From the NCBI RefSeq assembly GCF_003049665.1, contig NZ_PYWM01000003.1, positions 1 through 64,000 of the forward strand: a stretch of DNA of 64,000 nt, written 5' to 3'. The stretch is from Lysinibacillus mangiferihumi. Its GTDB lineage: Bacteria; Bacillota; Bacilli; Bacillales_A; Planococcaceae. Positions 157-58,058 of this stretch are shown here, in pieces. Below the pieces are notes generated by a model. That model saw only the letters and a list, made by a program, of their open reading frames with translations, was not told where the DNA came from and did not search any database. Position 1 is the first letter of the stretch. Each line of letters begins with the position of its first letter. Made by a program: the position numbers and the translations under genes.

Positions 157-254
157 GAAACGCCACAAAATCTGTGCAAAACGCCACTAAATCAGAGAGA
201 ATCGCCACATAATTAAAATAAAACGCCACTAAACTAGTTTGAATCGCCACTAAA
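157..254 (-). repeat. 21-bp phased intergenic repeat array A, five units
   Basis: The hexamer CGCCAC starts at 161, 182, 203, 224 and 245, exactly 21 bp apart. Read on the minus strand the units are 14-nt cores of the form TTTAGTGGCGATTC or TTTAGTGGCGTTTT, separated by 7-nt spacers that differ from one another. Core ends run TTTC, TTTT, ATTC, TTTT, ATTC from unit 1 to 5, so the last four alternate. No open frame runs through it. The array begins 30 bp after the intron end. It is far too short-spaced for CRISPR. Function unknown. Confidence 0.9.
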
Positions 255-388
255 ACGGACACATAGTAGCCACTTTCATCCGAGCCAAGTTTGGAATAAA
301 TATGTTACAGTAATGTTTTCATATAGGATGAAAGACAGATGTTTTTTCTTATGAAACTGTATTTTTACACGTCAGACGCGCCAAAAAA

Positions 389-397
389 TGTTATGAT
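389..397 (+). promoter_or_regulatory. probable extended -10 promoter of xseA
   Basis: TGTTATGAT is an extended -10 element placed about 49 nt before the xseA start. No good -35 is seen at 17 bp. It supports starting xseA at 446, since a start at 410 would sit almost on the predicted transcription start with no ribosome binding site. Confidence 0.45.
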
Positions 398-445
398 AAG
401 TGTAGTTTTGTGAAAAACTTGATTTTAGTAAAGGAGCCGAAAATA

Positions 446-1798
446 ATGTCATCAGCTTCTTATTTAACTGTAAAAGCGTTAACGAAATATATTAAACGAA
501 AATTCGATGCAGATCCACATCTTCGTGAAGTTTATGTCAAAGGGGAGTTATCCAATGTTAAAGTACACCAATCGGGGCATATTTACTTTACGTTAAAAGA
601 TGATGGAGCACGGATTGCAGCAACGATGTTTAAAACTGCCGCAACAAAATTAGCATTCGAGCCAAAAGAGGGTATGCAAGTATTTATCCGAGGGGATGTA
701 AACGTTTACGAAGGCTATGGTACATATCAATTATATGTGCAGGAAATGCAACCAGATGGAATCGGAAGCCTGTTTGTTGCTTTTAATCAACTGAAAGAAC
801 AGCTTCAAAAAGAAGGGCTTTTTAAACCTGAATGGAAACAGCCAATTCCAAAGTTTCCTGAAAAAATAGGTGTTTTAACATCCACTACTGGAGCCGCGAT
901 TCGAGATATTTGTACAACCTTAAAGCGACGGTATCCGCTTGCTGAAATCTTCATTTATCCAACCCTTGTACAAGGGGCACAAGCAGCACCAAGCATCGTA
1001 CACAATATTGAACGCGCTAATCAAGATGCTGTTTGTGACGTCTTGTTAGTAGGACGGGGTGGAGGATCAATTGAAGATTTATGGGCGTTTAATGAGGAAG
1101 CTGTAGCACGTGCTATTTTCGATAGTCGGATTCCCATTATTAGCGCAGTAGGGCACGAAACGGATACGACGATTGCCGATTATGTAGCAGATTTACGTGC
1201 ACCGACGCCTACTGCTGCCGCTGAAATGGCAGTTCCTGACCAGCAGGAATTGTATCAACGAGTGTTGACTCAAAAATCGCAGCTTCACCAAATCGTGAGG
1301 GCGCAACTTATAACGGAGCGACAACGTCTAAATAAGCTACAACAGTCCTATCCTTTAGCGATGCCAGAAAGATTGTATCGTCCGTTTACCGAACGGTTAG
1401 CACAGCTTGAAACAACTTTACAAAAAGCGATGCAAGTAGATTTGATGAAAAAAGAAGCACAACTTCAAAAATTGCATAGCGCAGTAGAGCAGCAATCACC
1501 AAAAAAAGCGCTCGTTTTTCATCAAAGGGAATTAGAACAGCGCATTCAACAGCTAACACGTTCTGCAACACATTACGTAACAAAGCAAAAACAACAATTT
1601 GAGGCATCAGTAAGAACACTCGAAGCATTAAATCCGCTTGCTATTTTAACAAGAGGATTCACAGTCGCTTATAAAGATGACAAAGTGTTGAAATCGTCTA
1701 CTGACTTAAAGCGGCAAGATCAACTAACATTGGCCTTCCACGATGGGAAAGTAATTGCCGAAGTGACAAATGTCTTGCCAAATAATAAGGAGGAATAG
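446..1798 (+). CDS. xseA: Exodeoxyribonuclease VII large subunit
   Basis: Catalytic subunit of exonuclease VII, which degrades single-stranded DNA to oligonucleotides together with several XseB subunits in the cytoplasm. The 450-residue protein has an N-terminal OB-fold (about 1-105, with the GELSNVKVHQSGHIYFTLKD stretch), the nuclease domain with GRGGGSIEDLWAFNEE and RAPTPTAAAE, and a long helical C-terminal region that binds XseB. The start at 446 is chosen over the upstream ATG at 410 because AAAGGAG lies 9 nt before it. It is the first gene of xseA-xseB-ispA, two bases before xseB. Length and motifs are normal for the family. Confidence 0.97.
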   Translation: MSSASYLTVKALTKYIKRKFDADPHLREVYVKGELSNVKVHQSGHIYFTLKDDGARIAATMFKTAATKLAFEPKEGMQVFIRGDVNVYEGYGTYQLYVQEMQPDGIGSLFVAFNQLKEQLQKEGLFKPEWKQPIPKFPEKIGVLTSTTGAAIRDICTTLKRRYPLAEIFIYPTLVQGAQAAPSIVHNIERANQDAVCDVLLVGRGGGSIEDLWAFNEEAVARAIFDSRIPIISAVGHETDTTIADYVADLRAPTPTAAAEMAVPDQQELYQRVLTQKSQLHQIVRAQLITERQRLNKLQQSYPLAMPERLYRPFTERLAQLETTLQKAMQVDLMKKEAQLQKLHSAVEQQSPKKALVFHQRELEQRIQQLTRSATHYVTKQKQQFEASVRTLEALNPLAILTRGFTVAYKDDKVLKSSTDLKRQDQLTLAFHDGKVIAEVTNVLPNNKEE

Positions 1799-1800
1799 CA

Positions 1801-2034
1801 ATGGCGAAGAAACAACAAACATTCGCAGAAGCAATGACGGCACTTGAAGAAATAGTCCGCCAATTAGAGCAGGGTGATGTGCCATTAGAAAATGCTATTG
1901 ATTTATATAAACAGGGCATGGAGCTTTCACAGTTTTGCCATAGTAAACTACAGCATGCCGAGGAACAGTTAATTTCAATTGTTCAAGAAACAGGTGAAAC
2001 AACAGTATTTGATCCGCTAAAGGGAGAGAACTAG
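1801..2034 (+). CDS. xseB: Exodeoxyribonuclease VII small subunit
   Basis: Small helical partner of XseA; several copies wrap the large subunit's C-terminal helix to form exonuclease VII. The 77-residue protein shows the family pattern, with FAEAMTALEEIVRQLEQGD at about 8-26 followed by LENAIDLYKQGMEL. The AAGGAGG ribosome binding site lies inside the last codons of xseA, and the genes are separated by two bases, so translation is probably coupled. ispA follows after 5 bp. Confidence 0.96.
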   Translation: MAKKQQTFAEAMTALEEIVRQLEQGDVPLENAIDLYKQGMELSQFCHSKLQHAEEQLISIVQETGETTVFDPLKGEN

Positions 2035-2039
2035 TTAAA

Positions 2040-2921
2040 ATGAACGAACAATTAAAACATTTTATTCAGAGCAACACACCACAAGTGGAGGCTGAGATGT
2101 TTGCACTTGTTGAGAAAATTGACGCACCAGCTCATTTAAAAGAGTCGATGCTATATTCATTAAAGGCAGGAGGCAAACGCATTCGCCCACTGTTTGTATT
2201 AGCAGTTTTAGAAATCTACGGTAAAGACCTAAAAGCAGGGCTTACAGTCGGTGCTGTTATTGAAATGATTCATACGTATTCTTTAATTCACGATGATTTA
2301 CCGAGCATGGATAACGATGATTTCCGTCGTGGCAAACCAACTAACCATAAAGTGTTTGGCGATGCCCTTGCAACACTTGCAGGCGATGCGTTAAATACGC
2401 TAGCGTTTGGCATTTTAGCGCGCATGGATCTTTCAGCGGAGCAACGAATAGAACTTGTCAATCTTCTAAGCGTAGCAGCAGGTGCTGAAGGGATGGTTGG
2501 CGGTCAAGTACTGGATATGGAAGGTGAGCAACGCCAACTAAGCCTAACGGAACTAGAACATGTACATGTCAATAAAACAGGTGCACTTTTACGATTTAGT
2601 ATTGAATCGGGTGCAGTATTAGCCAATGCTTCTCAAGAAGACCGAGCTACTTTAAAAGAATATGCGCATCATATTGGGCTGGCATTCCAAATCCAAGACG
2701 ACATATTAGATATTGAAGGCACAACAGAGGAATTAGGCAAAACAGCAGGGAAGGATGTAGCGAGCGATAAAAGCACATATCCTGCATTACTAACATTAGC
2801 TGGAGCCAAAGAAAAACTTGCTGACCATTATCAGCTAGCTATTGCAGCACTGGATAACTTACAAGTAGATGTCAGCTTACTGCGTGAGTTTGCGGCCTAT
2901 ATTGTTCATCGTAAAAACTAA
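2040..2921 (+). CDS. ispA: Farnesyl diphosphate synthase (geranyltranstransferase)
   Basis: Condenses isopentenyl diphosphate with dimethylallyl and geranyl diphosphate to give farnesyl diphosphate, the precursor of undecaprenyl carrier lipid and quinone side chains. The 293-residue all-helical prenyltransferase has both aspartate-rich metal sites: DDLPSMDNDD near residue 85 and QDDILD near 223, plus the KAGGKRIRP substrate motif near 43. It sits in the conserved xseB-ispA-dxs order, which links a prenyl chain enzyme to the first step of the MEP pathway. The ribosome binding site AAGGGAGAG is about 10 nt before the ATG. Confidence 0.96.
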   Translation: MNEQLKHFIQSNTPQVEAEMFALVEKIDAPAHLKESMLYSLKAGGKRIRPLFVLAVLEIYGKDLKAGLTVGAVIEMIHTYSLIHDDLPSMDNDDFRRGKPTNHKVFGDALATLAGDALNTLAFGILARMDLSAEQRIELVNLLSVAAGAEGMVGGQVLDMEGEQRQLSLTELEHVHVNKTGALLRFSIESGAVLANASQEDRATLKEYAHHIGLAFQIQDDILDIEGTTEELGKTAGKDVASDKSTYPALLTLAGAKEKLADHYQLAIAALDNLQVDVSLLREFAAYIVHRKN

Positions 2922-2971
2922 GAGAAAAAATGGGCGTTAAAGGGAAAGAATATGCTAGAATAGGTGAGGAC

Positions 2972-2989
2972 GTTTGCCAAGAGGCAAAC
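2972..2989. promoter_or_regulatory. small perfect hairpin between ispA and dxs
   Basis: GTTTGCC and GGCAAAC form a perfect 7-bp stem with an AAGA loop, 50 nt after the ispA stop. It is not followed by a U tract, so it is more likely an mRNA processing or stability structure, or a weak pause site, than a terminator. Confidence 0.4.
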
Positions 2990-3005
2990 AATAAAGTGTT
3001 CGTAC

Positions 3006-3034
3006 TTTTAGCATATGGATAACACTGTTATAAT
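3006..3034 (+). promoter_or_regulatory. possible internal promoter of dxs
   Basis: A consensus TATAAT at 3029-3034 lies about 52 nt before the chosen dxs start. The hexamer 17 bp upstream, TTTTAG at 3006-3011, is a poor -35. Confidence 0.4.
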
Positions 3035-3085
3035 GGTGGAAACACGATTGCGGTGAATAATTTATTGAAAAGGTGTGTGAGAAAG

Positions 3086-4987
3086 GTGGATTTAAACAAG
3101 ATTTCTAGTCCATCCTTTTTAAAAAACTTAGATAAGAGAGAGCTTGAACAACTTGCAAAAGAAATTCGAACTTTCTTAATTGAAAAATGTTCTGTCACAG
3201 GTGGTCATATCGGCCCGAACCTGGGTGTTGTGGAGCTGACAATTATGCTTCATAAAATGTTTGACAGTCCAAAAGATAAGTTTTTATGGGATGTTGGCCA
3301 CCAAGCTTACGTGCATAAAATTTTGACAGGTCGTGCGAGTCAATTTGACACTTTGCGTCAGTTCAAAGGGCTTTGTGGTTTTCCAAAGCTTGTGGAGAGT
3401 GAACATGATGAATGGGAAACGGGTCATAGCTCGACATCGTTGTCAGCAGCCATGGGTATGGCAGCAGCACGTGATATTAAAAACGAAAAAAACTTCGTCG
3501 TACCGATTATTGGGGACGGAGCTTTAACTGGCGGTATGGCTCTTGAGGCATTAAATCATATAGGGCATGCAAAAACTAATATGATTGTCATCTTAAATGA
3601 CAACGAAATGTCCATTGCACCGAATGTTGGCGCATTACACAGCGTATTAGGTCGCTTGCGAACTGCCAAAGAATATTCAAAAGCCAAAGAAGAATTAGAA
3701 TCGTTAATTAATAAAATTCCGCTTTTAGGTGGGAAGCTAGCTTCAACTGCTGAACGCTTGAAAGATAGTTTGAAATATCTAGTCGTTTCTGGTGTCTTCT
3801 TTGAGGAATTAGGCTTTAAATATTTAGGACCAATTGATGGTCACGACTTTGAGGCGCTTGAAACTACTTTATCCTATGCTAAAAAAGTAAAAGGCCCAGT
3901 GCTTGTGCATGTCATTACGAAAAAAGGAAAAGGCTACAAACCAGCGGAAGACGATACAATCGGGAATTGGCATGGGACAGGTCCATATAAAATGGAGACC
4001 GGTGCCTTTGTTAAATCTGAAACAAAAGGTCCTGCGTGGAGTAGTTTAATCGCTGAAACCGTTCGTAAAATTGCACATGAAGATGAACGCATTGTGACGA
4101 TTACGCCAGCGATGCCTGTTGGCTCAAAATTACAAGGGATTCAAAAAGACTTTCCTAAACGCTTTTTTGATGTCGGCATAGCTGAACAACATGCCGCAAC
4201 GATGGCTGCAGGTCTTGCTACTCAAAAAATGAAGCCGTTTTTAGCGATTTATTCAACATTTTTACAGCGTGCATATGACCAAGTTCTACATGATATTGCG
4301 CGTCCAAATTTAAACGTTTTCATTGGGATTGATCGTGCTGGCTTAGTTGGTGCAGATGGTGAAACACACCAAGGTGTCTTTGATATAGCATTCCTTCGCC
4401 ATATTCCCAACATGACGATCATGATGCCAAAGGATGAGAATGAAGGTCAACATATGGTGAAAACAGCCATTGATTATAACGGGGGACCGATTGCCCTTCG
4501 TTATCCACGTGGAAATGGGATTGGTGTCCCGCTCGATGAGGAGCTTATGACTTTACCAATAGGCAGTTGGGAAGTGCTACGTGAGGGGAAAGATGCGACG
4601 ATATTAACATTCGGCACAACTATTCCAATGGCAATGGAAGCAGCGCATATGCTCGCGCAACAAGGCGTAGAAATTGAAGTGGTGAATGCTCGCTTTATTA
4701 AGCCGATGGATGAAGATATGCTGCATCGTATATTTACTAGCAATAAACCAGTGCTAACGATTGAAGAAGCGGTATTACAGGGGGGCTTTGGTAGTGGTGT
4801 CTTAGAATTTGCGCACGACCATAGTTATTTCACTGCAATTATTGATCGAATGGGCATTCCAGATCAATTTATTGAGCATGGAAACGTAGACCAACTGCTA
4901 GCGGAAATCCATATGACAGCAGAAGATACAGTAGCACGCATGCAAGTGTTACTACAACAAAAACAGCAAGTAGGTTTGAACAAATAA
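3086..4987 (+). CDS. dxs: 1-deoxy-D-xylulose-5-phosphate synthase
   Basis: Thiamine-diphosphate enzyme joining pyruvate and glyceraldehyde 3-phosphate, the first committed step of the MEP isoprenoid pathway. The protein has the transketolase order: N-terminal TPP-binding domain with GDGALTGG followed by [10 protein letters not shown], a central pyrimidine domain with [13 protein letters not shown] and [10 protein letters not shown], and a C-terminal transketolase domain. The GTG at 3086 (633 residues, beginning [12 protein letters not shown]) is preferred over a GTG at 3053. Family proteins align from that point, and AAAAGGTG lies about 11 nt upstream. The stop overlaps the tlyA start by one base (TAATG). 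Confidence 0.95.
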
Positions 4988-5805
4988 TGACAAAACAACC
5001 GAAAGAACGTGTAGACATTTTACTTGTAGAGCGTGGGCTTTGTGAGACGCGCGAGAAGGCAAAACGGTCCATTATGGCGGGCCTTGTCTTTTCTAATGAA
5101 ATACGCATCGACAAAGCAGGAGAAAAAATTGCAATCGATGCACCGCTGCAAGTAAAAGGTTCGGATTTAAAATATGTGAGCCGTGGTGGCTTGAAACTAG
5201 AAAAAGCTTTGCAAATTTTTGATATGTCTGTAGAAGGGAAGCTGATGCTTGATATCGGCTCCTCTACAGGCGGTTTTACAGATTGTGCATTACAAAATGG
5301 TGCTCGACATTGTTATGCCTTAGATGTTGGCTCTAATCAGCTTGCGTGGAAAATTCGTTCAGATGAACGTGTAACGGTTATGGAAAAAACGAATTTCCGC
5401 TATACAACAGCGGCAGATTTGACGGAAGGTTTACCTGAGTTTGCTACAATCGATGTGAGTTTTATTTCACTATCATTGATTTTACCGGTGCTAAAAACGG
5501 TTTTAATGCCAGGTGGGGATGTCATGGCACTTGTTAAACCACAGTTTGAAGCAGGTAAAGAGAATGTTGGTAAAAAGGGTATCGTCCGTGATAAAAAAGT
5601 CCATCTTGATGTTCTAGAAAAAACCGCTGCTATGGCAACGGAAGTCGGCTTTGTTGTGAAGGATGCTTCTTTTTCGCCGATTACTGGCGGTGAGGGGAAT
5701 ATTGAATTTTTATTCCATTTAGTGAATCCTATAGGGGATGAAAGTATTCCACCATATACAGCTTTTAATGCACTCGTTGAAGAAGCGCATAGTGCACTAA
5801 AATAA
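4987..5805 (+). CDS. tlyA: TlyA family rRNA (cytidine-2'-O)-methyltransferase
   Basis: Predicted SAM-dependent RNA methyltransferase of the TlyA/YqxC family; family members 2'-O-methylate cytidines of 16S and/or 23S rRNA. The 272-residue protein has an N-terminal S4 RNA-binding domain (about 6-60, RVDILLVERGLCETREKAKR) and an FtsJ-like Rossmann domain with the SAM motif DIGSSTGGFTDCAL near 84 and the conserved DVSFISL near 155. It overlaps dxs by one base, and argR follows after a terminator. The rRNA target in this organism cannot be read from sequence. Confidence 0.93.
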   Translation: MTKQPKERVDILLVERGLCETREKAKRSIMAGLVFSNEIRIDKAGEKIAIDAPLQVKGSDLKYVSRGGLKLEKALQIFDMSVEGKLMLDIGSSTGGFTDCALQNGARHCYALDVGSNQLAWKIRSDERVTVMEKTNFRYTTAADLTEGLPEFATIDVSFISLSLILPVLKTVLMPGGDVMALVKPQFEAGKENVGKKGIVRDKKVHLDVLEKTAAMATEVGFVVKDASFSPITGGEGNIEFLFHLVNPIGDESIPPYTAFNALVEEAHSALK

Positions 5806-5836
5806 CACGTGCTCATTAAGTAGAGCCGTGTTTTTT
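5804..5836 (+). terminator. rho-independent terminator after tlyA
   Basis: AACACG and GCTC pair with GAGC and CGTGTT around an 8-nt loop, with one bulged base, followed by a T-rich tail. It ends the dxs-tlyA unit. Confidence 0.7.
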
Positions 5837-5906
5837 CTTGTGCTTTTATGCTGAAAATGGTAGTGTAATTATACAAATATTTAACTATTTATAAGAGGTG
5901 AACGAT

Positions 5907-6356
5907 ATGAATAAAGGGCAAAGACATATACGGATTCGTGATATTATTGCAAATCATGAAATTGAAACACAAGATGATTTAGTCGATTTTTTAAAGGATG
6001 CAGGCTATAATGTGACACAAGCAACGGTCTCACGTGATATTAAAGAACTGCACTTAGTAAAAGTACCTTTGCAGGATGGACGCTATAAATATAGCTTACC
6101 CGCAGACCAACGATTCAATCCAGTACAAAAATTACATCGTGCATTAGCGGATGCTTTTGTGAGCATTGACGGAGCATCGCATTTCTTAGTAATGAAAGCA
6201 CTCCCAGGTAATGCGAATGCTATTGCGTCATTACTGGATCATTTAGATTGGCCTGAAATTTTAGGTACGATTTCAGGGGATGATACTATTTTAATTATTT
6301 GTCGCGATGAAGCCGAGCGAGAAAATACAAAAAATCGCTTATTGGACATGCTATAA
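5907..6356 (+). CDS. argR: Arginine repressor ArgR/AhrC
   Basis: Arginine-sensing hexameric regulator that represses arginine biosynthesis and activates its catabolism. The N-terminal winged helix contains [15 protein letters not shown] near residue 37. The C-terminal domain has the arginine-binding and oligomerisation motifs [12 protein letters not shown] and [14 protein letters not shown]. The ATG at 5907 gives the usual [14 protein letters not shown] start and 149 residues, with AAGAGGTG 7 nt upstream; the GTG at 5898 overlaps that ribosome binding site. A likely target in this window is the GNAT-argJ pair near 58154, although no clear ARG box was recognised there. Confidence 0.96.
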
Positions 6357-6436
6357 GAGTGAAACGAAAATCGATGGTTAACAGTTGCTTGCCCGTTTTT
6401 TAAAAAAGCGGTCATTTTGCATCTGATAGCAGAAGT

Positions 6437-6442
6437 TATAAT
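6437..6442 (+). promoter_or_regulatory. -10 element upstream of recN
   Basis: Consensus TATAAT lies 33 nt before the recN start. The best upstream hexamer, TTGCAT at 6417-6422, is only 14 bp away, so the -35 is unclear. No LexA-type GAAC-N4-GTTC dyad is visible here. Confidence 0.45.
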
Positions 6443-6474
6443 AGCAGTTGAATTTAATTCAGAGGTGACAATTT

Positions 6475-8166
6475 GTGTTAAGAGAGCTTAGTATTCGAAA
6501 TTTTGCCATCATTGAGGATTTAACGGTTAGTTTTTCGGATGGTTTAACTGTACTAACAGGAGAAACTGGTGCTGGGAAATCCATTATTATTGATGCGGTA
6601 CATTTACTTGCTGGTGGTAGAGGTAATTCAGAATTTATTCGTCATGGTGCTAAAAAAGCTGAATTAGGCGGGTTGTTTCAAATATCAAGTACTGCACATC
6701 CTGTATATAAGAAACTAGAGGAAGCAGGCATTGAAATAGAAGAAGATTCTATTATTTTACGCCGCGATCTAAATGACTCTGGCAAAAGTGTTTGTCGGGT
6801 AAATGGCAAATTGGTACCTTTATCGGTTTTACGAGATATTGGTGCAAGTCTAATTGATATACATGGTCAGCATGAAAATCAAGAACTAATGGATGAAAAA
6901 CAACATATTCATTTATTGGATCAATTTGCAGAAGCGCAACTATCACCGATTCTTGAACAATACAGTATTCAATATAACGAATATCGGGCATTAAAAAAAG
7001 AATTAGCCTCCATTTCTATTGATGAGCAGTTAATGGCACAACGCATTGATTTGTACCAATTCCAAATGAAAGAATTGGAAGATGCAAATTTAAAGCTTGG
7101 TGAAGAAGATGAGCTGTTAGATGAACGTCGTCGTCTAATGAATTTTAATAAAATTTTCGAACGTTCGAGTGCTGCCTATGAAGCAATTCAGGGAGAGACA
7201 AAAGGGCTTGACTGGATCGGTACAGCGATGGGCGCATTAGATGATGCGGCGGTCATCGATGAACAGTTTAAAGAGGCATCTGAGTCGGTAACAACTGCTT
7301 TTTACGCTTTACAGGATGCCGCCTATCAGGTGAAAAATGTATTAGATGAGTTAGAATTCGATCCTGCGCGATTAAATGAAGTTGAGCAACGCTTGGCACT
7401 TTTCCAAAACTTAAAGCGCAAATATGGCTCCACTGTTGAAGAAATGCTCGCCTATTATGAGAAGATTAAAACAGAGCTTAGTGAGCTTTTGAATCGTGAT
7501 GAAATATTGCAATTAAAAGAACGAAAAGTACTTGAAATGGAAGTAGTATTAAGTGAACTTACTGAAAAACTTTCGCATGTTCGAAAAGCAGCAGCCAATG
7601 ATTTAAGCGAGGCTATCATGGCAGAGCTACGTGAATTACATATGGAAAAAGCAAAATTTATTGTAAATTTTGATGCTTTACCTTACTTTGATGTCAATGG
7701 TAAAGACCAAGTGATCTTTTATATTTCAACGAATGTCGGGGAACCACCGAAATCTTTACCGAAAATTGCTTCAGGTGGGGAATTGTCGCGTATGATGTTA
7801 GCATTAAAAACGATTTTTTCTTCTTCCAATGGTGTAACATCCATTATTTTTGACGAAGTGGATACTGGCGTAAGTGGTCGTGTAGCGCAAGCAATCGCTG
7901 AAAAAATTGCAGCCATTTCTGTTAATTCTCAAGTTCTGTGTATTTCGCATTTACCTCAAGTGGCGGCGATGGCTGACCATCATTACTTCATTAAAAAAGA
8001 GGTTGAACATGATCGGACATTTACTTCTTTAGCAGAAATCGATACAGATGCTCGTATTGAAGAAGTGAGCAGAATGATGTCAGGTGCAGAAATTACCGAT
8101 TTGACTTTACAGCATGCGACAGAATTGTTAAAAATGGCTAATGAGCGAAAAAAACAAATGCGCTAA
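6475..8166 (+). CDS. recN: DNA repair protein RecN
   Basis: SMC-like ATPase that acts early in double-strand break repair, gathering DNA ends before recombination. The 563-residue protein shows the split ABC-ATPase head: Walker A GETGAGKS near residue 30, then a long coiled coil (about 150-370), then the signature SGGELSRMMLALK near 438 and Walker B IIFDEVDTGVSG near 463. It starts with GTG preceded by AGAGGTGAC. Position between argR and spoIVB is the conserved Bacillales order. Length is normal. Confidence 0.96.
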   Translation: MLRELSIRNFAIIEDLTVSFSDGLTVLTGETGAGKSIIIDAVHLLAGGRGNSEFIRHGAKKAELGGLFQISSTAHPVYKKLEEAGIEIEEDSIILRRDLNDSGKSVCRVNGKLVPLSVLRDIGASLIDIHGQHENQELMDEKQHIHLLDQFAEAQLSPILEQYSIQYNEYRALKKELASISIDEQLMAQRIDLYQFQMKELEDANLKLGEEDELLDERRRLMNFNKIFERSSAAYEAIQGETKGLDWIGTAMGALDDAAVIDEQFKEASESVTTAFYALQDAAYQVKNVLDELEFDPARLNEVEQRLALFQNLKRKYGSTVEEMLAYYEKIKTELSELLNRDEILQLKERKVLEMEVVLSELTEKLSHVRKAAANDLSEAIMAELRELHMEKAKFIVNFDALPYFDVNGKDQVIFYISTNVGEPPKSLPKIASGGELSRMMLALKTIFSSSNGVTSIIFDEVDTGVSGRVAQAIAEKIAAISVNSQVLCISHLPQVAAMADHHYFIKKEVEHDRTFTSLAEIDTDARIEEVSRMMSGAEITDLTLQHATELLKMANERKKQMR

Positions 8167-8180
8167 ATTAATAAGAAAAT

Positions 8181-8212
8181 CCAGAGGCAGTCCAATGTTT
8201 CTGGGTTTTTTT
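8181..8212 (+). terminator. terminator after recN
   Basis: CCAGA pairs with TCTGG across a 14-nt loop, followed by GTTTTTTT. The stem is short but the U tract is strong, and it separates recN from the separately expressed sporulation gene. Confidence 0.6.
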
Positions 8213-8293
8213 CATTTTGCACAAATATTTACCGCTTATAAGAACCGCACAACAACACATAGTATAAAGACAAAAATCAAAAGGAGGTGTCGT

Positions 8294-49625: not shown

Positions 49626-49645
49626 TTAAAGAGGGGGAGGTACAG

Positions 49646-50350
49646 TTGCAACACTTTTGGGTTGTTGGAACAGATACAGATGTTGGAAAAACATTTGTCA
49701 CCACATTATTAATGCGTAATTTGCAAAAACAGGGCGTACGTGTAACGCCTTATAAACCAGTGCAAACTGGTGAAGTGTATGATGGTGAACAAGCCTATTA
49801 CTTCGACACAGCGATGTATGAAAAATATTCCTTGCAATTGCTAGACAGAGAGAATTTAAATGGCTATTCATTTAAAGAGGCTGCATCGCCACATTTTGCG
49901 GCTCAACTGGAGGGGCAGCAAATTGACACACAGCAGTTATTAAAGCAAATGCAGCTTTTACAGCAAACATGGGATGTTGTTATTTGTGAAGGAGCGGGTG
50001 GGCTCTTTGTGCCATTAGATGCATGTGGCGAAACGACATTGTTGGATGTCATTGTTGAAAGTAAACTACCCGTTGTCGTGGTTACACGAACAGCACTAGG
50101 AACAATTAACCACACGCTCTTAACGTTAGAGGCATTGACTACACGGGAAATTGAAGTGCTTGGTCTTGTATTTAACGGTGATATGGGGAGCAGGATGGAG
50201 CAAGATAATATTCAAACGATTTTACAGTATTATACATTGCCCTTTATGACGATACCAAAGCTGGAAGAGCTGTCGGACATTAGTGAGTATACAATTACGG
50301 GCACATCATTGTTTGAAAGGCTGATTAGACGTGAAACAAGTATTAACTGA
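49646..50350 (+). CDS. bioD: Dethiobiotin synthetase
   Basis: ATP-dependent closure of the ureido ring, making dethiobiotin from 7,8-diaminopelargonate and CO2. The 234-residue P-loop protein has [18 protein letters not shown] near 5-22, KPVQTG near 38 and [12 protein letters not shown] near 114. It starts with TTG preceded by GGGGGAGG. It is first in bioDAYB and overlaps bioA by 20 bp. Confidence 0.95.
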
Positions 50351-51698: not shown

Positions 51699-51702
51699 GG
51701 GC

Positions 51703-52293
51703 ATGTTGAAACGACAATCAACGTTATCACTTGTGATGATTGCGATGTTTGCTGCATTAACAGCCGTGGGTGCCTTTATTAAAATTCCATTACCGCTCGT
51801 GCCGTTTACATTACAAATTGTCTTTGTCTTTTTAGCGGGCTGCTTACTCGGTGGTCGCAATGGATTTCAAAGTCAGCTAGTTTACATAGGAATAGGTTTA
51901 GTTGGCTTGCCAGTTTTTACACAAGGTGGAGGCATTACATATGTATTGCAGCCGACTTTTGGTTACTTAATAGGATTTGCTCTTGCTGCATTAGTAATCG
52001 GCTATATGATTGATCGAGTAGAATCACCAACGAAAAAGCATTTCATTGTTGCCAATATTATAGGGCTTATCATTATTTATGCAGTCGCCGTACCTTATTT
52101 ATATGTAGCTTTAAATTTATGGTTAAACATGAAATCAAGTTGGTCTCATGTATTTTTAGTAGGCTTTGTCAATAGTATTGTTGCAGACTTTTGCTTAGCA
52201 ATTGCTTCTGCCCTTTTAGCTGAACGTCTATACAAAGTATTTCGTTCCGCTAGAGCTATAAAACTTGTGCAAATTGAAAAGGAGAATGTTTAG
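51703..52293 (+). CDS. bioY: Biotin transporter BioY (ECF S component)
   Basis: Membrane biotin-binding component that works with the shared energy-coupling factor module. The 196-residue protein has six predicted helices with the family segments GAFIKIPLPLVPFTLQIVFV near 22-41 and GLPVFTQGGGITYVLQPTFG near 68. ATG at 51703 is chosen because GGGAGGG precedes it; the open frame from 51667 lies inside bioA. Placed in the biotin operon, so uptake and synthesis are co-regulated. Confidence 0.94.
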   Translation: MLKRQSTLSLVMIAMFAALTAVGAFIKIPLPLVPFTLQIVFVFLAGCLLGGRNGFQSQLVYIGIGLVGLPVFTQGGGITYVLQPTFGYLIGFALAALVIGYMIDRVESPTKKHFIVANIIGLIIIYAVAVPYLYVALNLWLNMKSSWSHVFLVGFVNSIVADFCLAIASALLAERLYKVFRSARAIKLVQIEKENV

Positions 52294-53291
52294 TGAATTG
52301 GTTACAATTAGCAGATGAAGTGATTGCAGGCAAGGTAATTAGCGATGATGAGGCACTTGCCATTTTAAATAGTGATGATGATGATATTTTAAAGCTAATG
52401 GACGGCGCATTTGCCATTCGTAAGCACTATTACGGTAAAAAAGTAAAGTTAAATATGATTATGAATGCTAAAAGTGGCTATTGCCCAGAGGATTGTGGCT
52501 ATTGCTCGCAGTCATCTAAATCAACCGCTCCTATTGAGAAATATCCGTTCATTACAAAAGAGGAAATATTGGCGGGGGCAAAGCGTGCATTTGAAAATAA
52601 AATTGGTACGTATTGCATCGTCGCAAGCGGACGTGGGCCGACTCGTAAAGATGTCAATGTAGTGAGTGAAGCCGTTGAAGAAATTAAAGCAAAATATGGC
52701 TTAAAAGTTTGCGCTTGCTTAGGTTTACTAAAAGAAGAACAAGCACAACAATTAAAAGAAGCGGGTGTTGATCGCTACAATCATAACTTAAATACATCAG
52801 AGCGTCACCATTCCTATATTACGACGACGCACACATATGAGGATCGTGTTAATACCGTTGAGGTTGTAAAGAAACATGGTATTTCCCCATGTTCTGGAGC
52901 CATTATTGGGATGAAAGAAACGAAAATGGATGTCGTGGAAATTGCACGCGCATTGCATCAGTTGGACGCGGATTCAATTCCAGTTAACTTCTTACATGCA
53001 ATTGATGGGACGAAACTTGAAGGAACACAGGACTTAAATCCTCGCTATTGCTTAAAAGTATTAGCGTTATTCCGCTACATGAATCCTTCGAAGGAAATTA
53101 GAATTTCCGGTGGTCGCGAAGTCAATTTAGGATTCCTTCAGCCATTTGGACTGTATGCAGCAAATAGTATTTTTGTTGGGGATTACTTGACTACTGAAGG
53201 ACAAGAAGCCAATAGCGATTATCGTATGCTTGAAGATTTGGGCTTTGAAATCGAGCTGACACAAAAGCAAGAAGAAGCATTTTGTTCTTAA
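52293..53291 (+). CDS. bioB: Biotin synthase
   Basis: Radical SAM enzyme that inserts sulfur into dethiobiotin. The 332-residue protein has the [4Fe-4S] motif YCPEDCGYCSQS near 64-75 (Cys-x3-Cys-x2-Cys), further [2Fe-2S] ligands CSGAIIGMKET downstream, and the RISGGREVNLGFLQPFGLYA signature near 270. The GTG start overlaps the bioY stop. bioF, bioC, bioH or bioW are not in this window, so earlier pathway steps must be encoded elsewhere or be missing. Confidence 0.96.
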   Translation: MNWLQLADEVIAGKVISDDEALAILNSDDDDILKLMDGAFAIRKHYYGKKVKLNMIMNAKSGYCPEDCGYCSQSSKSTAPIEKYPFITKEEILAGAKRAFENKIGTYCIVASGRGPTRKDVNVVSEAVEEIKAKYGLKVCACLGLLKEEQAQQLKEAGVDRYNHNLNTSERHHSYITTTHTYEDRVNTVEVVKKHGISPCSGAIIGMKETKMDVVEIARALHQLDADSIPVNFLHAIDGTKLEGTQDLNPRYCLKVLALFRYMNPSKEIRISGGREVNLGFLQPFGLYAANSIFVGDYLTTEGQEANSDYRMLEDLGFEIELTQKQEEAFCS

Positions 53292-53348
53292 TTCATTAAT
53301 AACAATCATTATGAAATAAAATCTACTACTACACAATATGATTACCTA

Positions 53349-53393
53349 AAAACCGTTTGAGCGTCGTGGAAAAAGCGCACAGACGGTTTTTTG
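53349..53393 (+). terminator. terminator of the biotin operon
   Basis: AAAACCGT and ACGGTTTT close a hairpin with a larger internal loop, followed by T residues. From 53394 to 53560 no gene was seen. Confidence 0.65.
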
Positions 53394-53474
53394 GTCGATA
53401 AAAGAGAAGGAGAAAGGTAAATAAATGGTTCCGATAATATACCTATAAAATGATGGTTTTCACAAAATGTTCAA

Positions 53475-53488
53475 TGAAAGCGTTTTGA
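53475..53488 (+). promoter_or_regulatory. cre-like site upstream of the 40-codon gene
   Basis: TGAAAGCGTTTTGA matches the CcpA cre consensus TGNAARCGNWWWCA at 13 of 14 positions. It lies 160 bp before the small gene. A possible promoter, TTGTAT (53588) with TATATT (53612), lies between. Confidence 0.35.
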
Positions 53489-53647
53489 AATTGAACAGTT
53501 TGTGAAGGGCTTCACATAAAGCTTTATTTTTTAAAAAAAGAGCGTAAAATGAAAATTAGCAAGAGTTGTTATAAGACAGTTTGTTCTTTGTATCACATGT
53601 TAGGTGATTGTTATATTACAAAAATAATAGGTAAGGGAGAGGTTAAG

Positions 53648-53770
53648 ATGTGGGTTATTACAGTTTTTGAGAAAAAAAATGTGCGTATTTTTGAATATAC
53701 AAACAAAAATGAGGCAACAGCCGCATTAGCAAAATTTAAGAAAAATGCCGTATTAACATATACAAAATAA
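53648..53770 (+). CDS. Small conserved-type 40-residue protein
   Basis: A 40-residue soluble protein beginning MWVITVFEKKNVRIFEYTNK, then an amphipathic helix NEATAALAKFKKNA and a final strand VLTYTK, a beta-beta-alpha-beta pattern. Similar 40-residue proteins occur in other Bacillales as far as I recall, with no known function. AAGGGAGAGG lies about 5 nt before the ATG. The upstream frame to 53549 has no ribosome binding site and is not counted. Confidence 0.65.
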   Translation: MWVITVFEKKNVRIFEYTNKNEATAALAKFKKNAVLTYTK

Positions 53771-53797
53771 TACTTGTTTCGGTTTAAATCTAAAAAT

Positions 53798-53837
53798 AAC
53801 CCCTCATTGTACAATATAACGTACAATGAGGGGTTTT
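53798..53837. terminator. bidirectional terminator with operator-like loop
   Basis: AACCCCTCATTGTAC and GTACAATGAGGGGTT are a perfect 15-bp stem, followed by TTG. The loop plus adjacent stem reads ATTGTACAATATAACG, a 16-mer that recurs inverted at 54516-54531 in the regulatory region of the same LysE gene. Confidence 0.85.
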
Positions 53838-53838
53838 G

Positions 53839-54435
53839 TTAATGAAAAAGTATGGAGAAAGCACTGAAAACTAATAAAATTGCCATGAAAATATTGAATG
53901 GTTGATGATACTGTAAAAGTACTTTTCGAAAGGTAGAGCCAAATAGAGCCCAGCTAAATGTACTGATAATCCCGACAAACCCTAAAAATAATGCAAATAA
54001 AAGGTAACTCATATAGGAAGTGTAATACGGCAAAATATAGGTCGCAACGACCGTAATGCCAAACAAAATTCCTTTTGGATTGACGAACTGTAGAAAGGCT
54101 CCAAGTAGTAAAAGGTTTCGTTTATGCTCCTCTAGATGGTTAGGATTCGAATCTACGTGGTCTTTGGTTGTCGCAATTTTAAAAGCTAAATACAACATAT
54201 AGCCTACCCCTAAAATCGTTAGTGGTAATGTAATAATGGGCATAATTTGACTAACAGCAAAATTAAAAAAACTACTTAAAGCGGTTATTGTAAAGAAGCC
54301 AATGCCCACACCGAGACAAAACTGCATCGTTTTTTTAAATCCATATTGGTTGGCATAGGCCATTGCCATAATGTTGTTCGGCCCGGGTGTAAAGCTTGTA
54401 ATGATAACGAATACTAAAAAGGATATGTAAGGCAT
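53839..54435 (-). CDS. LysE family translocator
   Basis: A 198-residue six-helix exporter with the family N-terminus SFTPGPNNIMAMAYANQYGF near 14 and the internal FLQFVNPKGILFGITVVATY near 113. Probably exports an amino acid or derivative. It is divergent from an XRE-cupin regulator, a common arrangement for LysE-type exporters. AGGAGG lies 9 nt before the ATG on the minus strand. Both ends of the gene carry related ATTGTACAATATAACG motifs. Confidence 0.87.
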   Translation of the reverse strand: MPYISFLVFVIITSFTPGPNNIMAMAYANQYGFKKTMQFCLGVGIGFFTITALSSFFNFAVSQIMPIITLPLTILGVGYMLYLAFKIATTKDHVDSNPNHLEEHKRNLLLLGAFLQFVNPKGILFGITVVATYILPYYTSYMSYLLFALFLGFVGIISTFSWALFGSTFRKVLLQYHQPFNIFMAILLVFSAFSILFH

Positions 54436-54453
54436 TTTAGACCTCCTTGTTAT

Positions 54454-54531
54454 TTGTACGTTATATCGTCCTAAATAAACTATATAACGTCCTGTTTTTT
54501 ATTATACATAAAGGTCGTTATATTGTACAAT
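54454..54531. promoter_or_regulatory. multiple CGTTATAT operators between LysE and XRE genes
   Basis: Three related sites: TTGTACGTTATAT (54454), ACTATATAACGTCC (54479, opposite orientation) and CGTTATATTGTACAAT (54516). A fourth lies in the terminator loop at 53806. They are the likely binding sites of the divergently encoded regulator. Confidence 0.6.
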
Positions 54532-54550
54532 TTTTTAAGGGGTGCTTGAT

Positions 54551-55111
54551 TTGGAGGAAATTCATTTAATTTTTGCAAGGAATTTAAAAGCGATTCGCGA
54601 AAAAGAAAAACTTAGTTTAGAAAAAGTGTCTCAGCTATGTGGCGTTAGTAAAACGATGATTGGGCAAATTGAAAGAGGCGAGTCTAGTCCAACGCTTACA
54701 ACTATCTGGAAAATCGCAACAGGTTTAAAGGTTTCCTTTACGGCTCTTATCCATCAGCCGCAGTCGGAAACAGAAGTCGTGCTGAAAAAGGATATACCAG
54801 TATTATCAGAAGATAATGGGAAATATAGAGTGTATCCAAATTTTCCATTTCAAGAAGATAGTCGTTTTGAAATCTATACAATAGAGATTGATCAGGGTGG
54901 TCAATTAAGCGCAGAGGGTCATAAAGAAGGCACAGAGGAATTTATTACTGTTTTTGCAGGGGAACTAATGATTTGTGTCAATGACCATAACTACACTTTA
55001 AAAAGTGGTGATTCCATCCGATTTAAAGCAGACAGACCGCATGACTATCGTAATGCAGGTGATACATTAACGAAGTTAGGCATGACCATCTATTATCCGA
55101 ATGAAAGATAA
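54551..55111 (+). CDS. XRE family regulator with C-terminal cupin domain
   Basis: A 186-residue regulator: helix-turn-helix (about 8-62, LSLEKVSQLCGVSKTMIGQI) and a cupin ligand domain (about 110-182, EFITVFAGELMICVNDHNYT and DRPHDYRNAG). TTG at 54551 is chosen because AAGGGGTG lies about 6 nt upstream; the GTG at 54542 is part of that site. Divergent from the LysE exporter, it probably controls that gene and itself through the CGTTATAT sites. Confidence 0.87.
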   Translation: MEEIHLIFARNLKAIREKEKLSLEKVSQLCGVSKTMIGQIERGESSPTLTTIWKIATGLKVSFTALIHQPQSETEVVLKKDIPVLSEDNGKYRVYPNFPFQEDSRFEIYTIEIDQGGQLSAEGHKEGTEEFITVFAGELMICVNDHNYTLKSGDSIRFKADRPHDYRNAGDTLTKLGMTIYYPNER

Positions 55112-55153
55112 AAATCGGATGTGCGCTTATGGATAGCGCTCATCCGATTTTTT
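55109..55153. terminator. bidirectional terminator
   Basis: AAAAATCGGATG with CATCCGATTTTT, and inside it GCGC with GCGC around a 9-nt loop, between converging genes. Confidence 0.85.
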
Positions 55154-55157
55154 TAAC

Positions 55158-56321
55158 TTATAAAATGCTGCCTAAACGTTTAATGCCTTCACGAATAATG
55201 TCAGGTGTTGCATTTGTATAGTTCAGACGCATCGTGTTTACACCTGTTTTTGACGTATAGAAGGGATCGCCAGGAACGAAAGCGACCTTTTGTTCCATTG
55301 CTTTATTAAAGACGTCCAATGCTGCAGCACCGTTAGTCATTGTCGCCCAAATGAACATCCCACCATCTGGACGAGTGTATTCAACATGTGCAGGGAAGAA
55401 TTCCTGCATCGCACCTAGCATTGCATCAGATTGATTTTTATATAAAGCAATGATTTTTTTTACGTGTTCTGTATAATCATTATTTGCTAAGTAATCATAA
55501 ATCACATATTGTGAGAAAATGTTTGTGTGTAGGTCAGTTGCTTGTTTTGCTGTTTCAATATGTTTCATTAACACTTTATTTTTCGTAATAATAAAGCCAA
55601 GGCGCATACCTGGTGTAACTGTTTTAGAGAAAGAACCTAGTAAAATACTATTTTCGAGTTTTCCGGCACCGATATAAGGAAGTGGTTCACCTTGGAAGCG
55701 TAGTTCTCCATATGGATCATCTTCAATTAATGCTACGTCGTATTTAGCAATAATGTCATATATTTGTTGACGTTTTTCTTTTGAATACGTAAGACCCGTT
55801 GGATTTTGGAAGTTAGGTACTGTATAGATGAATTTCACGTTTGGCTGCTGTAAAGCATTCTCTAATTCTTCTAAATTAAGGCCATCGTTTTCAAGGGTTA
55901 CGCCATAGAAATTAGGCTCACTTAATGTGAAGGCTTGAATCGCGCCTAAATAGCCTGGTTCCTCAATGACAATGCCATCCCCTTTATTAATAAGTACTTT
56001 ACCAATTAGTTCAAGCGCTTGCTGTGAACCAGTTGTAATCAATATATCATCTGCGCTAATATCTAACCCATGAACACGTTTGTATTTAGCTGCGATGTAT
56101 TCACGTAAAGGTGCATAGCCTTGTGTAGATGAATATTGGAATAATCGACTGCCATTTTCACTAATCGCATGGTCAACAGATGCTTTTAATGCATCGATTG
56201 GGAAAGAGATGGGGTTTGGTAGCCCACCTGCAAAGGAAATGACATCCTCGGCATCCGTTACTTTTAAAATATTACGGATGAATGAAGATGGTGTGTTTAA
56301 GATTCTTTCAGAATATTGCAT
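55158..56321 (-). CDS. PLP-dependent aminotransferase, 2-aminoadipate aminotransferase-like
   Basis: A 387-residue class I/II aminotransferase of the MocR/LysN-like branch without an N-terminal DNA-binding domain. Key parts are ISFAGGLPNPISFP near 28, TTGSQQALELIGKVL near 96, YTVPNFQNPTGLTYS near 170 and the PLP lysine in LLGSFSKTVTPGMRLGF near 229, with the C-terminal MRLNYTN (arginine ligand). The amino donor is unknown; aromatic, branched-chain or aminoadipate is possible. ATG at 56321 (GGGACCG upstream) is chosen over an upstream frame that crosses operators. Confidence 0.87.
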   Translation of the reverse strand: MQYSERILNTPSSFIRNILKVTDAEDVISFAGGLPNPISFPIDALKASVDHAISENGSRLFQYSSTQGYAPLREYIAAKYKRVHGLDISADDILITTGSQQALELIGKVLINKGDGIVIEEPGYLGAIQAFTLSEPNFYGVTLENDGLNLEELENALQQPNVKFIYTVPNFQNPTGLTYSKEKRQQIYDIIAKYDVALIEDDPYGELRFQGEPLPYIGAGKLENSILLGSFSKTVTPGMRLGFIITKNKVLMKHIETAKQATDLHTNIFSQYVIYDYLANNDYTEHVKKIIALYKNQSDAMLGAMQEFFPAHVEYTRPDGGMFIWATMTNGAAALDVFNKAMEQKVAFVPGDPFYTSKTGVNTMRLNYTNATPDIIREGIKRLGSIL

Positions 56322-56373
56322 AATTTTATCGGTCCCTTTTTCTGATTTTTTAAAAATTATAGCATTGTAATCA

Positions 56374-56425
56374 TTTGCATACAATATTATGATTGTATGC
56401 AAGACAATTATATATTGTATGCAAA
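56374..56425. promoter_or_regulatory. three MocR-type operator half-sites
   Basis: ATTGTATGCAAA at 56374-56385 (inverted), ATTGTATGCAA at 56392-56402 and ATTGTATGCAAA at 56414-56425 (direct, 22 bp after the second). One inverted and two direct half-sites is a pattern described for MocR/GabR-type regulators. Confidence 0.7.
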
Positions 56426-56447
56426 GCCAAAAGAAAGGGGTTAAAGC

Positions 56448-57851
56448 ATGCCATTTAACTCATTTGATGAATACCCAATGAGCTGGAAGCCCAATATAAG
56501 CAATATCTCAGCGCCAATTTATATCGCAATTGCAGAGCAGTTAGAACAGGATATTAAGGAAGGTGTTTTATTGCCAGGGACTAAGTTGCCACCACAACGC
56601 GAACTGGCTGATTTTTTAGATGTCAATTTAAGTACAATTACAAGAGCGTTTAAGCTGTGCGGACAAAAGGGACTAATTTATGCCTCGATTGGGAGTGGTA
56701 CATTTGTTTCTTCTGATGCAGCGGCAAATAAAATTTTATTACCGACAAGTAATGCTGGTCATTTAATCGAGTTAGGTTCGGTCTTACCAGATGCTTATGC
56801 GAATGAAGAAATAACACGTTATATGAAGAAAATGCTGAATGATTCTAATGTCAGCAAGTTATTTCAATATGGTCGACCAGAAGGGAATGCATGGCAAACT
56901 GAAGCAGCAGCAAAACTTTTAGAAAAAGTTGGATTTCAAACGGATCAACCAATATTGCTTGGTGCAGGAGGTCAAAATGCAATTGTCGGCACATTAGCCG
57001 CTTTATTTCATCCAGGAGATCGTATTGGAACAGATCCCATTACATATGCAGGAATCAAAACGGCTGCTAATATGCTTGGTATTCAACTAGTAGCCATTCA
57101 GCAAAAAAATGGAGAGATGACAAAAGAAGGACTATTGTATGCTTGTAAAAATGAACATATTAAAGGTCTTTATGTGATTCCAGATTTTCATAACCCTACA
57201 ACCCATACAATGTCTATGGAAACAAGAAAAATGATAGCAGAAGTGGCTAGGCAAAAGGGATTAATCGTGATAGAGGACGCCATTTATAGCTTTTTGAAGG
57301 AGCAGCCACTAGCGCCAATCGCCTTTTATGCACCGGAAAAGGTAGTGTATATTGCCAGTGTGTCCAAAACGATATCACCTGGTTTAAGGTTATCCTTTAT
57401 TGTGACGCCTAGTGCATTAAGAAAGAAAATTATTGAAACACTATATAATATCAATATTTCGGTATCACCTGTTATGGTGGAGCTTACAGCAAGACTAATT
57501 CAAGATGGTGTTGCGCAAACGATATTAGAGAAACATCGCTTATATGCTAAACAACAAAATGCGCTTGTGAATCAGTATTTAGGGGAATACAATATTTTAG
57601 GTGATGATGAATGCATGTTTAGATGGCTTCTATTGCCGAAAAAATTTACTGGCGTGCAGTTTGAATTACTTGCTTCGAAAGCGGGCGTCCAAGTTTATGC
57701 AGCAGAACGTTTTGCAGTAGGTAATGCCAAACCAATAAATGCCGTTCGATTGGCAATTACGGCACCAGAAAATAGCGCGCAGCTTGAGCAAGCCTTAACG
57801 GTATTAAAGGAATTGCTTGAAAGTGATGGTGACTATGGGTTTGTAGATTAA
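56448..57851 (+). CDS. MocR family regulator (GntR HTH fused to aminotransferase domain)
   Basis: A 467-residue PLP-binding regulator. The N-terminal GntR winged helix is at about 22-90 (LPGTKLPPQRELADFLDVNL and STITRAFKLCGQKGLIYASI). The C-terminal fold-type I aminotransferase domain is at about 110-460, with ILLGAGGQNAIVGTLAALFH near 168 and the PLP lysine in ASVSKTISPGLRLSF near 305. AAAGGGG precedes the ATG. It is divergent from an aminotransferase gene, its probable target. Confidence 0.92.
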   Translation: MPFNSFDEYPMSWKPNISNISAPIYIAIAEQLEQDIKEGVLLPGTKLPPQRELADFLDVNLSTITRAFKLCGQKGLIYASIGSGTFVSSDAAANKILLPTSNAGHLIELGSVLPDAYANEEITRYMKKMLNDSNVSKLFQYGRPEGNAWQTEAAAKLLEKVGFQTDQPILLGAGGQNAIVGTLAALFHPGDRIGTDPITYAGIKTAANMLGIQLVAIQQKNGEMTKEGLLYACKNEHIKGLYVIPDFHNPTTHTMSMETRKMIAEVARQKGLIVIEDAIYSFLKEQPLAPIAFYAPEKVVYIASVSKTISPGLRLSFIVTPSALRKKIIETLYNINISVSPVMVELTARLIQDGVAQTILEKHRLYAKQQNALVNQYLGEYNILGDDECMFRWLLLPKKFTGVQFELLASKAGVQVYAAERFAVGNAKPINAVRLAITAPENSAQLEQALTVLKELLESDGDYGFVD

Positions 57852-57870
57852 CAGTGAATGAGTGGAAGGG

Positions 57871-57904
57871 AAAAGTGTTAGATTGCATGCAATCTAACAC
57901 TTTT
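57871..57904. terminator. repeated terminator element, copy 2
   Basis: A perfect 34-bp palindrome: AAAAGTGTTAGATTGCA and its complement with no extra loop, followed by more T and ACTG. Arms match copies 1 (35839) and 3 (62927). It follows the MocR gene by 20 bp. Confidence 0.9.
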
Positions 57905-57939
57905 TTACTGTTGAGCGAAACAGCGGGGTTTCTCACAGG

Positions 57940-58058
57940 TTTACCCGCGAATCAGGGAGATTTATCCGCGGTTTTTCACAGTTTACCCGCGAATCGGAGA
58001 CATTTACCCGCGTTTTCCAAAGGTTTACCCGCGAATCACAAACTTTTACCCGCGATTC
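57940..58058 (+). repeat. 21-bp phased intergenic repeat array B, six units
   Basis: Fourteen-base cores start at 57940, 57961, 57982, 58003, 58024 and 58045, exactly 21 bp apart. The consensus is TTTACCCGCGAATC in units 1, 3 and 5; units 2, 4 and 6 end GTTT, TTTT or ATTC. Spacers of 7 nt all differ. A degenerate seventh unit may sit at 57919-57932. The 42-bp alternation parallels array A. It lies between the terminator copy 2 and an acetyltransferase gene. Confidence 0.92.

Follow-up and report, generated by a model that had tools for sequence, protein, structure and literature searches.

Arrays A and B are two clusters of tandem direct repeats in a 64,000-nucleotide stretch of Lysinibacillus mangiferihumi DNA (contig NZ_PYWM01000003.1, positions 1 to 64,000; this whole stretch is called the window). 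Each repeat unit consists of a 14-nt core, in which a variable triplet stands between TTTA and GCG, and a 7-nt spacer. Both arrays are members of a wider Bacillales family of intergenic 20-21-bp arrays. Judging from sequence comparison, A and B are probably dispersed cognate sites of two paralogous proteins that carry a nuclease-like NERD domain, a reading that combines a link between NERD nucleases and arrays with direct recognition of the arrays by these proteins. The link taken by itself is very likely, and direct reading of the triplet code by the C-terminal half of the protein is a probable further step, whereas a function of the system in spreading the arrays is plausible at somewhat less than even odds.

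Among 662 reading frames located within 2.5 kb of arrays, one protein family recurs at 10 loci in several genera, 0-181 bp from the arrays, and at the thresholds used every other gene family is limited to three loci or fewer within 250 bp of an array. Members of this family are ~320 amino acids long and contain an N-terminal NERD domain, a CxxC..CxxC zinc ribbon and a C-terminal apparent winged helix, the last of which was read by eye from the alignment. Like other NERD-domain proteins, all five members searched match the Pfam NERD model (PF08378) above its cut-off in their N-terminal half (E 1e-15 to 1e-22; 58 to 80 bits, cut-off 22.1). Beyond NERD, Pfam returns weak zinc-ribbon and other matches and no Y1 transposase in these five proteins, and a profile search against solved structures gives weak zinc-ribbon matches only. 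Three residues, E46, D79 and K94, are invariant in 37 NERD proteins, consistent with a PD-(D/E)xK-like site.

An array with a 20-22-bp period lies within 400 bp of 43 of 50 distinct NERD loci, compared with 12 of 144 control genes (3/30 xseA, 1/27 acetyltransferase-like and 8/87 other frames; Fisher p about 1e-24). The 50 loci derive from 56 NERD entries, six of which were dropped as repeats or as the second piece of the same gene, and four of the seven array-less loci (L329, L355_15718, L358_357 and L344) have units in the unit scans. At the genome level, NERD proteins are detected at E 1e-15 in 236 of the 261 genomes of the window's family, with 1 to at least 8 copies each; array pairs are present in 63 of these 236 genomes and in none of the 25 others (p = 0.001, kinship ignored). 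An earlier sequence-only reading of the window had proposed to ask whether array presence tracks with a particular nuclease, nucleoid protein or reverse transcriptase gene, and in both comparisons it tracks with a nuclease-like gene. Flanking arrays of the TTTANNNGCG kind are antisense to the NERD gene in all 15 cases scored, most of which come from one ortholog group. Because the cores of flanking arrays differ between NERD paralogs (TTTATCAGCG, TTTAGCGGCG, TTTATTTGCG, TTTACGTGCG, TACCCGCGGAA, TATTCGCTC and others), TTTANNNGCG-kind arrays appear to be one part of a broader repertoire.

The triplets beside NERD genes recur in the dispersed arrays of the same genomes. In the window's own genome (G000), two NERD genes lie 7.7 kb apart on contig C94, one accompanied by the code of array A and the other by that of array B (Table 1), and CCC (32) and GTG (27) account for most of the dispersed units fetched. 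In place of the single common partner that had been proposed for A and B, there are probably two paralogous NERD proteins, one with GTG units and one with CCC/TCC units. A pair of NERD genes 7.6 to 8.5 kb apart is also present in G017, G020, G024, G027 and G029. In G027 and G029, which are closely related to one another as well as to G000, GTG/ATG and CCC units both flank NERD genes and are dispersed. G020 is likewise a near relative of G000 (97% in xseA), yet its flanking and dispersed codes both differ from those of G000, with TCG as the flanking code and 24 dispersed TCG units. In G024, the flanking code is TCA and 253 dispersed units carry TCA. TCA also stands beside a NERD gene in G017, G022, G023 and G031, accompanied by GCG in all except G023, and it prevails in the dispersed arrays of these four genomes (for G022 and G031, among the arrays listed). 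The scan for codes used a wide unit definition that includes TCTA and TTTT starts.

A comparison within the main ortholog group suggests that the DNA-binding half of the protein and its 3′ array change together. The NERD halves of the G024 and G031 proteins are 95% identical, while their C-terminal halves are 68% identical. At the DNA level, the coding stretch before the zinc ribbon is 90-96% identical; the figure drops to 72-73% where the C-terminal half is encoded and to 45-49% for the 3′ array, and past that array it is 94-99%. The 3′ array carries TCA in G024 and GCG in G031, and the 5′ array carries TCA in both. Since the 5′ array region also diverges between the two genomes (0 to 90% identity in bins 600-1300), which speaks against giving weight to array divergence alone, the special point is the drop of identity inside the coding sequence that adjoins the 3′ array. 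Such a pattern would be expected if a specificity cassette had been exchanged or if its parts had changed rapidly together. Within the DNA-binding half, a helix region reads SQYVAKR or SQYIAKR in four genes with adjoining GCG units (one of them, in G021, has mostly GTG) and differs in seven other orthologs. Because linkage, code match, co-occurrence and joint change all converge on it, the C-terminal half is likely to recognise the arrays.

Table 1. Arrays and terminator-like palindrome in the window, and NERD genes elsewhere in the same genome
Feature	Location	Strand	Description
Array A	window 150..254	minus	5 units TTTA-GTG-GCG-WWTY + 7-nt spacer; period 21; GTG code; unit scan
Array B	window 57940..58065	plus	6 units TTTA-CCC(TCC)-GCG-WWTY + 7-nt spacer; period 21; 42-bp alternation; CCC code; unit scan and Tandem Repeats Finder
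Palindrome AGTGTTAGATTG..CAATCTAACACT + T run	window 57874..57901	not assigned	terminator-like; shortly before array B
NERD gene, uninterrupted	G000 contig C94 8888-9835		flanked by GTG units (array A code)
Second NERD gene	G000 contig C94 244-1200		interrupted by in-frame stop; CCC and TCC units (array B code)

The units of arrays A and B are non-palindromic and directly repeated. A unit scan, Tandem Repeats Finder and sequence shuffles agree with the earlier description of both arrays as genuine, with 21-bp steps and a TTTA-triplet-GCG frame. Tandem Repeats Finder calls array A at 157-254 with period 21 and array B with periods 21 and 42, the longer of which fits the alternating unit types described before. 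The TTTANNNGCGWWTY motif has 10 matches in the window, eight of them inside the two arrays, against 0.72 expected, and 0 of 100 dinucleotide shuffles of the window reach 10. The proposal of one triplet per array holds for array A, in which all five units carry GTG (two left ends are imperfect, one TTAT and one TTTT), and is loosened in array B, where five of six units carry CCC and one carries TCC.

Beyond the window, G000 contains 37 adjacent unit pairs of this kind and none of the reversed pattern. Within the genus, 15 of 32 genomes have the array pair; within the family, 63 of 261 genomes do, spanning 10 of its 19 genera. NCBI assigns Lysinibacillus to the Bacillaceae. A scan of named genomes finds, among the matches listed, Lysinibacillus, Ureibacillus, Planococcus, Planomicrobium, Psychrobacillus, Sporosarcina, Neobacillus, Mesobacillus, Cytobacillus and others; isolated matches in unrelated phyla are probably due to chance, and two viral contigs carry the array pattern. 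The view that A and B are variants of one wider repeat family is borne out by this search, in which further arrays share a common TTTA/GCG frame and neither an absence of other arrays nor random periods without a shared frame was encountered.

When 172 arrays with three or more units are given equal weight, the information content is 1.5-1.9 bits at each TTTA and GCG position, 0.2 bits at the third base of the triplet and ~0 at most spacer positions. Most unit steps (965) are 21 bp, as had been claimed, but steps of 20 bp (151) and, less often, 18 bp (36) also occur. Two unit types often alternate, making a 42-bp period. Arrays of exactly five units make up 11 of 19 in Planococcus and 13 of 23 in Neobacillus, and the last unit ends in GATTC in 16 of the 19 Planococcus arrays and in GAATC in 15 of the 23 Neobacillus arrays. 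In a Mesobacillus/Cytobacillus group (L132, L141, L165, L188, L194, L195 and others), 14 of 15 arrays end in GGCGAACTGG, which is followed by an inverted repeat of GGCGAACTGG. Because the unit number peaks at five and the last units are distinct and fixed, the arrays look like structured elements and not like plain satellites.

Several other accounts of the units can be set aside. RNA hairpins formed by the units are disfavored by mean folding z values of about -0.2 and -0.3 on the two strands (60 of the 172 arrays; z below -2 in 10/60 on the TTTA strand and 6/60 on the other), and a coding function is ruled out by spacing that shifts among 18, 20, 21 and 22. In L113, alternating spacers look complementary to each other by eye, but this was not confirmed as a general feature. 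A strong hairpin is located within 110 bp of 35 of 57 arrays and keeps to no fixed side (upstream in 19 and downstream in 20 of the 57). The unique ~30-nt spacers and cas genes that define clustered regularly interspaced short palindromic repeats (CRISPR) have no counterpart here: the core is 14 nt, the spacer 7 nt, and the sole neighbor family recurring at more than three loci is NERD.

Within G000, the triplet behaves as an array-level code. If only unit pairs with two or fewer matches among the seven spacer positions are counted, 69% share the triplet within arrays compared with 28% between arrays, which supports this view for that genome. Uniformity is not general, because the like measure in G026 gives 26% within and 17% between arrays, and single arrays there mix TCG, CTG, CGG, GCG and other triplets. 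The idea of the triplet as an identity code common to all units of an array therefore stands for G000 and not as a rule. Arrays at orthologous places stay but may change code between species: one locus has CCC in G000 and G029 versus YCG in G026, and another has GTG in G000 versus TCA and CCG in G024. In G026 (NERD locus L357), the main NERD ortholog was not found and the dispersed triplets are unusually mixed; decay after loss of the NERD gene is possibly the source of the mixed triplets in this genome.

Arrays also show a polarity relative to replication. With the origin placed at dnaA, TTTANNNGCG lies on the strand against the fork in 52 of 57 arrays on five chromosomes of the genus, while reading frames mostly point the other way (260 of 386 with the fork); for arrays in convergent or divergent gaps, the count is 30 of 31. 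A chain filter had left out five loci, four against the fork (G024 2105428, G026 67478, G029 392031 and G029 1311670) and one with it (G026 3650135), and adding these changes the genus count to 56 of 62. Pattern listings cover 100 of 106 pairs in G024 and 15 of 20 in G029. In three genomes of other genera (G066, G143 and G102), 23 of 24 arrays run against the fork, with loci grouped by hand, the lengths of G066 and G102 taken as a rounded 4.0 Mb and the terminus placed half-way from dnaA; G111 was left out (by hand, 2/3 against the fork on the dnaA contig). Over all eight chromosomes of the window's family, the count is 75 of 81; leaving out G027 and G029, whose array B orthologs are among the exceptions, it becomes 59 of 62.

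These properties can be joined in a tentative mechanism. The C-terminal half would bind units two helical turns apart and read the NNN triplet, and the NERD domain may cut or nick at or near the arrays in a replication-dependent and strand-specific manner. Such cutting or nicking could maintain and spread the arrays in a REPIN-RAYT-like or homing-like way, with any benefit to the host being secondary. A selfish mode of this type would explain the dispersal, the fast change of codes, the interrupted paralogs and the strand bias, while a host role in handling forks would explain the polarity and the retention of arrays. The fullest version, which we regard as speculative and somewhat doubtful, is a drive system of nucleases that combine NERD, a zinc ribbon and a winged helix and whose specificity cassette (the DNA-binding half plus the 3′ array) can be exchanged. 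These nucleases would act in a replication-polarised manner at tandem 21-bp arrays of their own code, and in this way keep and homogenise them and spread them over the chromosome. Each genome would then hold one or several co-evolving pairs of nuclease and code.

A number of observations weigh against the recognition of dispersed arrays by NERD proteins or against its proposed coupling to replication. The seed NERD proteins were picked for adjoining arrays, which biases the linkage count of 43 in 50, and that count also ignores kinship. NERD proteins are found in 236 of 261 genomes, while dispersed TTTANNNGCG arrays occur in only 63. In G026, whose dispersed units carry TCG, CTG, CGG and others, the one fetched NERD gene lacks TTTANNNGCG units, and the best NERD match (E 2e-78) falls outside the close ortholog group. 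Three more paralogs in G024 lack adjoining TTTANNNGCG units of a dispersed code, and arrays persist in spite of an interrupted cognate gene, as with the CCC gene in G000 and the GTG gene in G027. The DNA-binding half looks GCG-like in G017, G022 and G031, though flanking units in these genomes include many TCA. With respect to replication, polarity is missing in Neobacillus, where 7 of 11 arrays in N. mesonae and 1 of 3 on one contig of a second Neobacillus run against the fork (together 8/14), and two of five hand-placed arrays at or near NERD genes run with the fork; these two belong to the CCC group, and one of them is ~7 kb away from the gene.

Four other explanations deserve to be weighed against recognition by NERD proteins. 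It is improbable that the arrays are neutral minisatellites, which would have expanded by slippage in unconstrained intergenic gaps with a core inherited from old arrays. The unit number does vary among near relatives (array B has 6 units in G000, 5 in G027 and 11 in G029), the arrays sit in gaps where hairpins are frequent, and a 42-bp alternation suits pairwise duplication; set against this are cores that stay intact beside near-random spacers, codes equal to those beside NERD genes, the peak at five units with its distinct last unit, and the replication polarity in the window's family. It is likewise improbable that the arrays are operators for an ordinary transcription regulator with NERD genes as one target, an account that would fit direct repeats on either side of genes and a protein with an apparent winged helix. 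Array orientation does not follow the flanking genes, arrays are enriched in convergent gaps (22/57 versus 22/153 other gaps), and no neighbor family besides NERD recurs at the thresholds given above.

A third explanation holds that domesticated NERD proteins serve the host and that arrays are sites whose orientation follows replication, such as polar barriers to the fork or marks that direct the processing of stalled forks. It is conceivable, if doubtful: orientation tracks replication and not transcription in the window's family, some arrays keep their place across species, and a tblastn search of plasmid and phage collections with the G000 NERD protein gives no match at E 1e-10. Yet 198 of 261 family genomes are without the array pair, no clustering near the presumed terminus is seen by eye, codes change fast, some paralogs are interrupted, and Neobacillus lacks the polarity. 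Defence, in which the NERD nuclease would act on foreign DNA while chromosomal arrays hold or restrain it, is an unlikely fourth explanation. Conflict systems commonly show quickly changing specificity and broken paralogs, and the NERD part has weak similarity to MADS6 (E down to 4e-7) and BREX PglW models. PADLOC, however, gives weak matches in two of four NERD proteins (best E 4e-4, in the NERD part only) and none in the other two, and the neighbors of the NERD genes in G000 look like ordinary chromosomal genes: on contig C94 (L354), the pair brackets genes that look like ssb, an SNF2-type helicase and flagellin.

The closest working analogy to arrays with cognate NERD proteins is the repetitive extragenic palindromic (REP) sequences and their REPIN arrangements, together with the REP-associated tyrosine transposase (RAYT). 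In one paper, these are described as many short extragenic repeats, found chiefly between unidirectional or convergent genes, with a cognate RAYT gene that is itself flanked by repeats (PMC3733652). As in REPIN-RAYT systems, the repeats here are short and lie between genes, several repeat types occur per genome, and a cognate gene is flanked by the dispersed repeat in G000, G020, G024, G027 and G029, though not in G026. Membership in that class fails on both repeat and enzyme: REPs are palindromes tagged GTAG or CGTC, whereas the arrays are non-palindromic direct repeats with a 20-21-bp period, and RAYT is a tyrosine (Y1/HUH) transposase, whereas the protein here combines NERD, a zinc ribbon and an apparent winged helix.

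Plasmid iterons resemble the arrays: both are direct repeats that share a conserved core and are spaced by roughly two helical turns. Unlike iterons, the arrays occupy many loci on chromosomal contigs, their code varies from array to array, and their partner is a NERD protein without a plasmid match at the threshold given above; no Rep-like family was found to recur beside the arrays. Homing endonucleases and eukaryotic PRDM9 offer a looser analogy, in that a sequence-specific DNA-binding part changes fast along with its sites. They differ from the present case, in which tandem arrays and a NERD domain occur on a bacterial chromosome. Literature searches of open-licence papers returned no report of NERD genes linked to repeat arrays. 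A 2022 paper states that to its authors' knowledge the role of NERD in bacteria had never been studied before (PMC9040797), and in the accessible text of another, NERD occurs only in the abbreviation list (PMC10910872).

The surroundings of the two arrays in the window differ. Array A directly follows the 3′ end of a group II intron (Rfam RF00029, window 56-126) near the contig edge; this is the single Rfam match in the window, and the arrays match no Rfam model at gathering score. At the place of array A, the compared stretch of G027 has a terminator-like hairpin and no intron. The gap that holds array A, upstream of an xseA-like gene, was compared in the 12 relatives with this gene on the plus strand: G027 has one unit, G020 and G026 have degenerate arrays with other codes, and among the nine further relatives G023 has a different 21-bp repeat, G017 and G030 have other repeats, and no array is seen by eye in the rest. 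The G023 repeat, located at ~1050-1300 of locus L042, is of the CCGTCGCTCAAGCGATACAAT type and fills the gap that holds array A in G000. The names xseA, folD, flagellin, ssb, SNF2-type helicase, MocR-like and argJ-like are presumed from the sequences. The terminator-like palindrome AGTGTTAGATTG..CAATCTAACACT before array B has three copies in the window (35843, 57874 and 62931) and was the main candidate for a common insertion flank in G000 and G026, where it adjoins several arrays; it is not a defining part of the element, being upstream of several arrays yet present in array-free copies too. Other common array flanks are present in G024.

Taken at the strengths given, arrays A and B would belong to a system of nucleases and repeats, in ordinary soil bacteria, that has apparently not been described before. 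If this reading is true, a common and hardly studied nuclease-like family gains DNA targets together with a readable specificity code, and the many natural variants of that code could be used to learn how the DNA-binding half reads DNA. Beside REPIN-RAYT, there would be a second kind of dispersed repeat with a cognate enzyme, built from unrelated parts. It would also provide a sequence-level handle on why replication polarises such repeats in certain lineages only.

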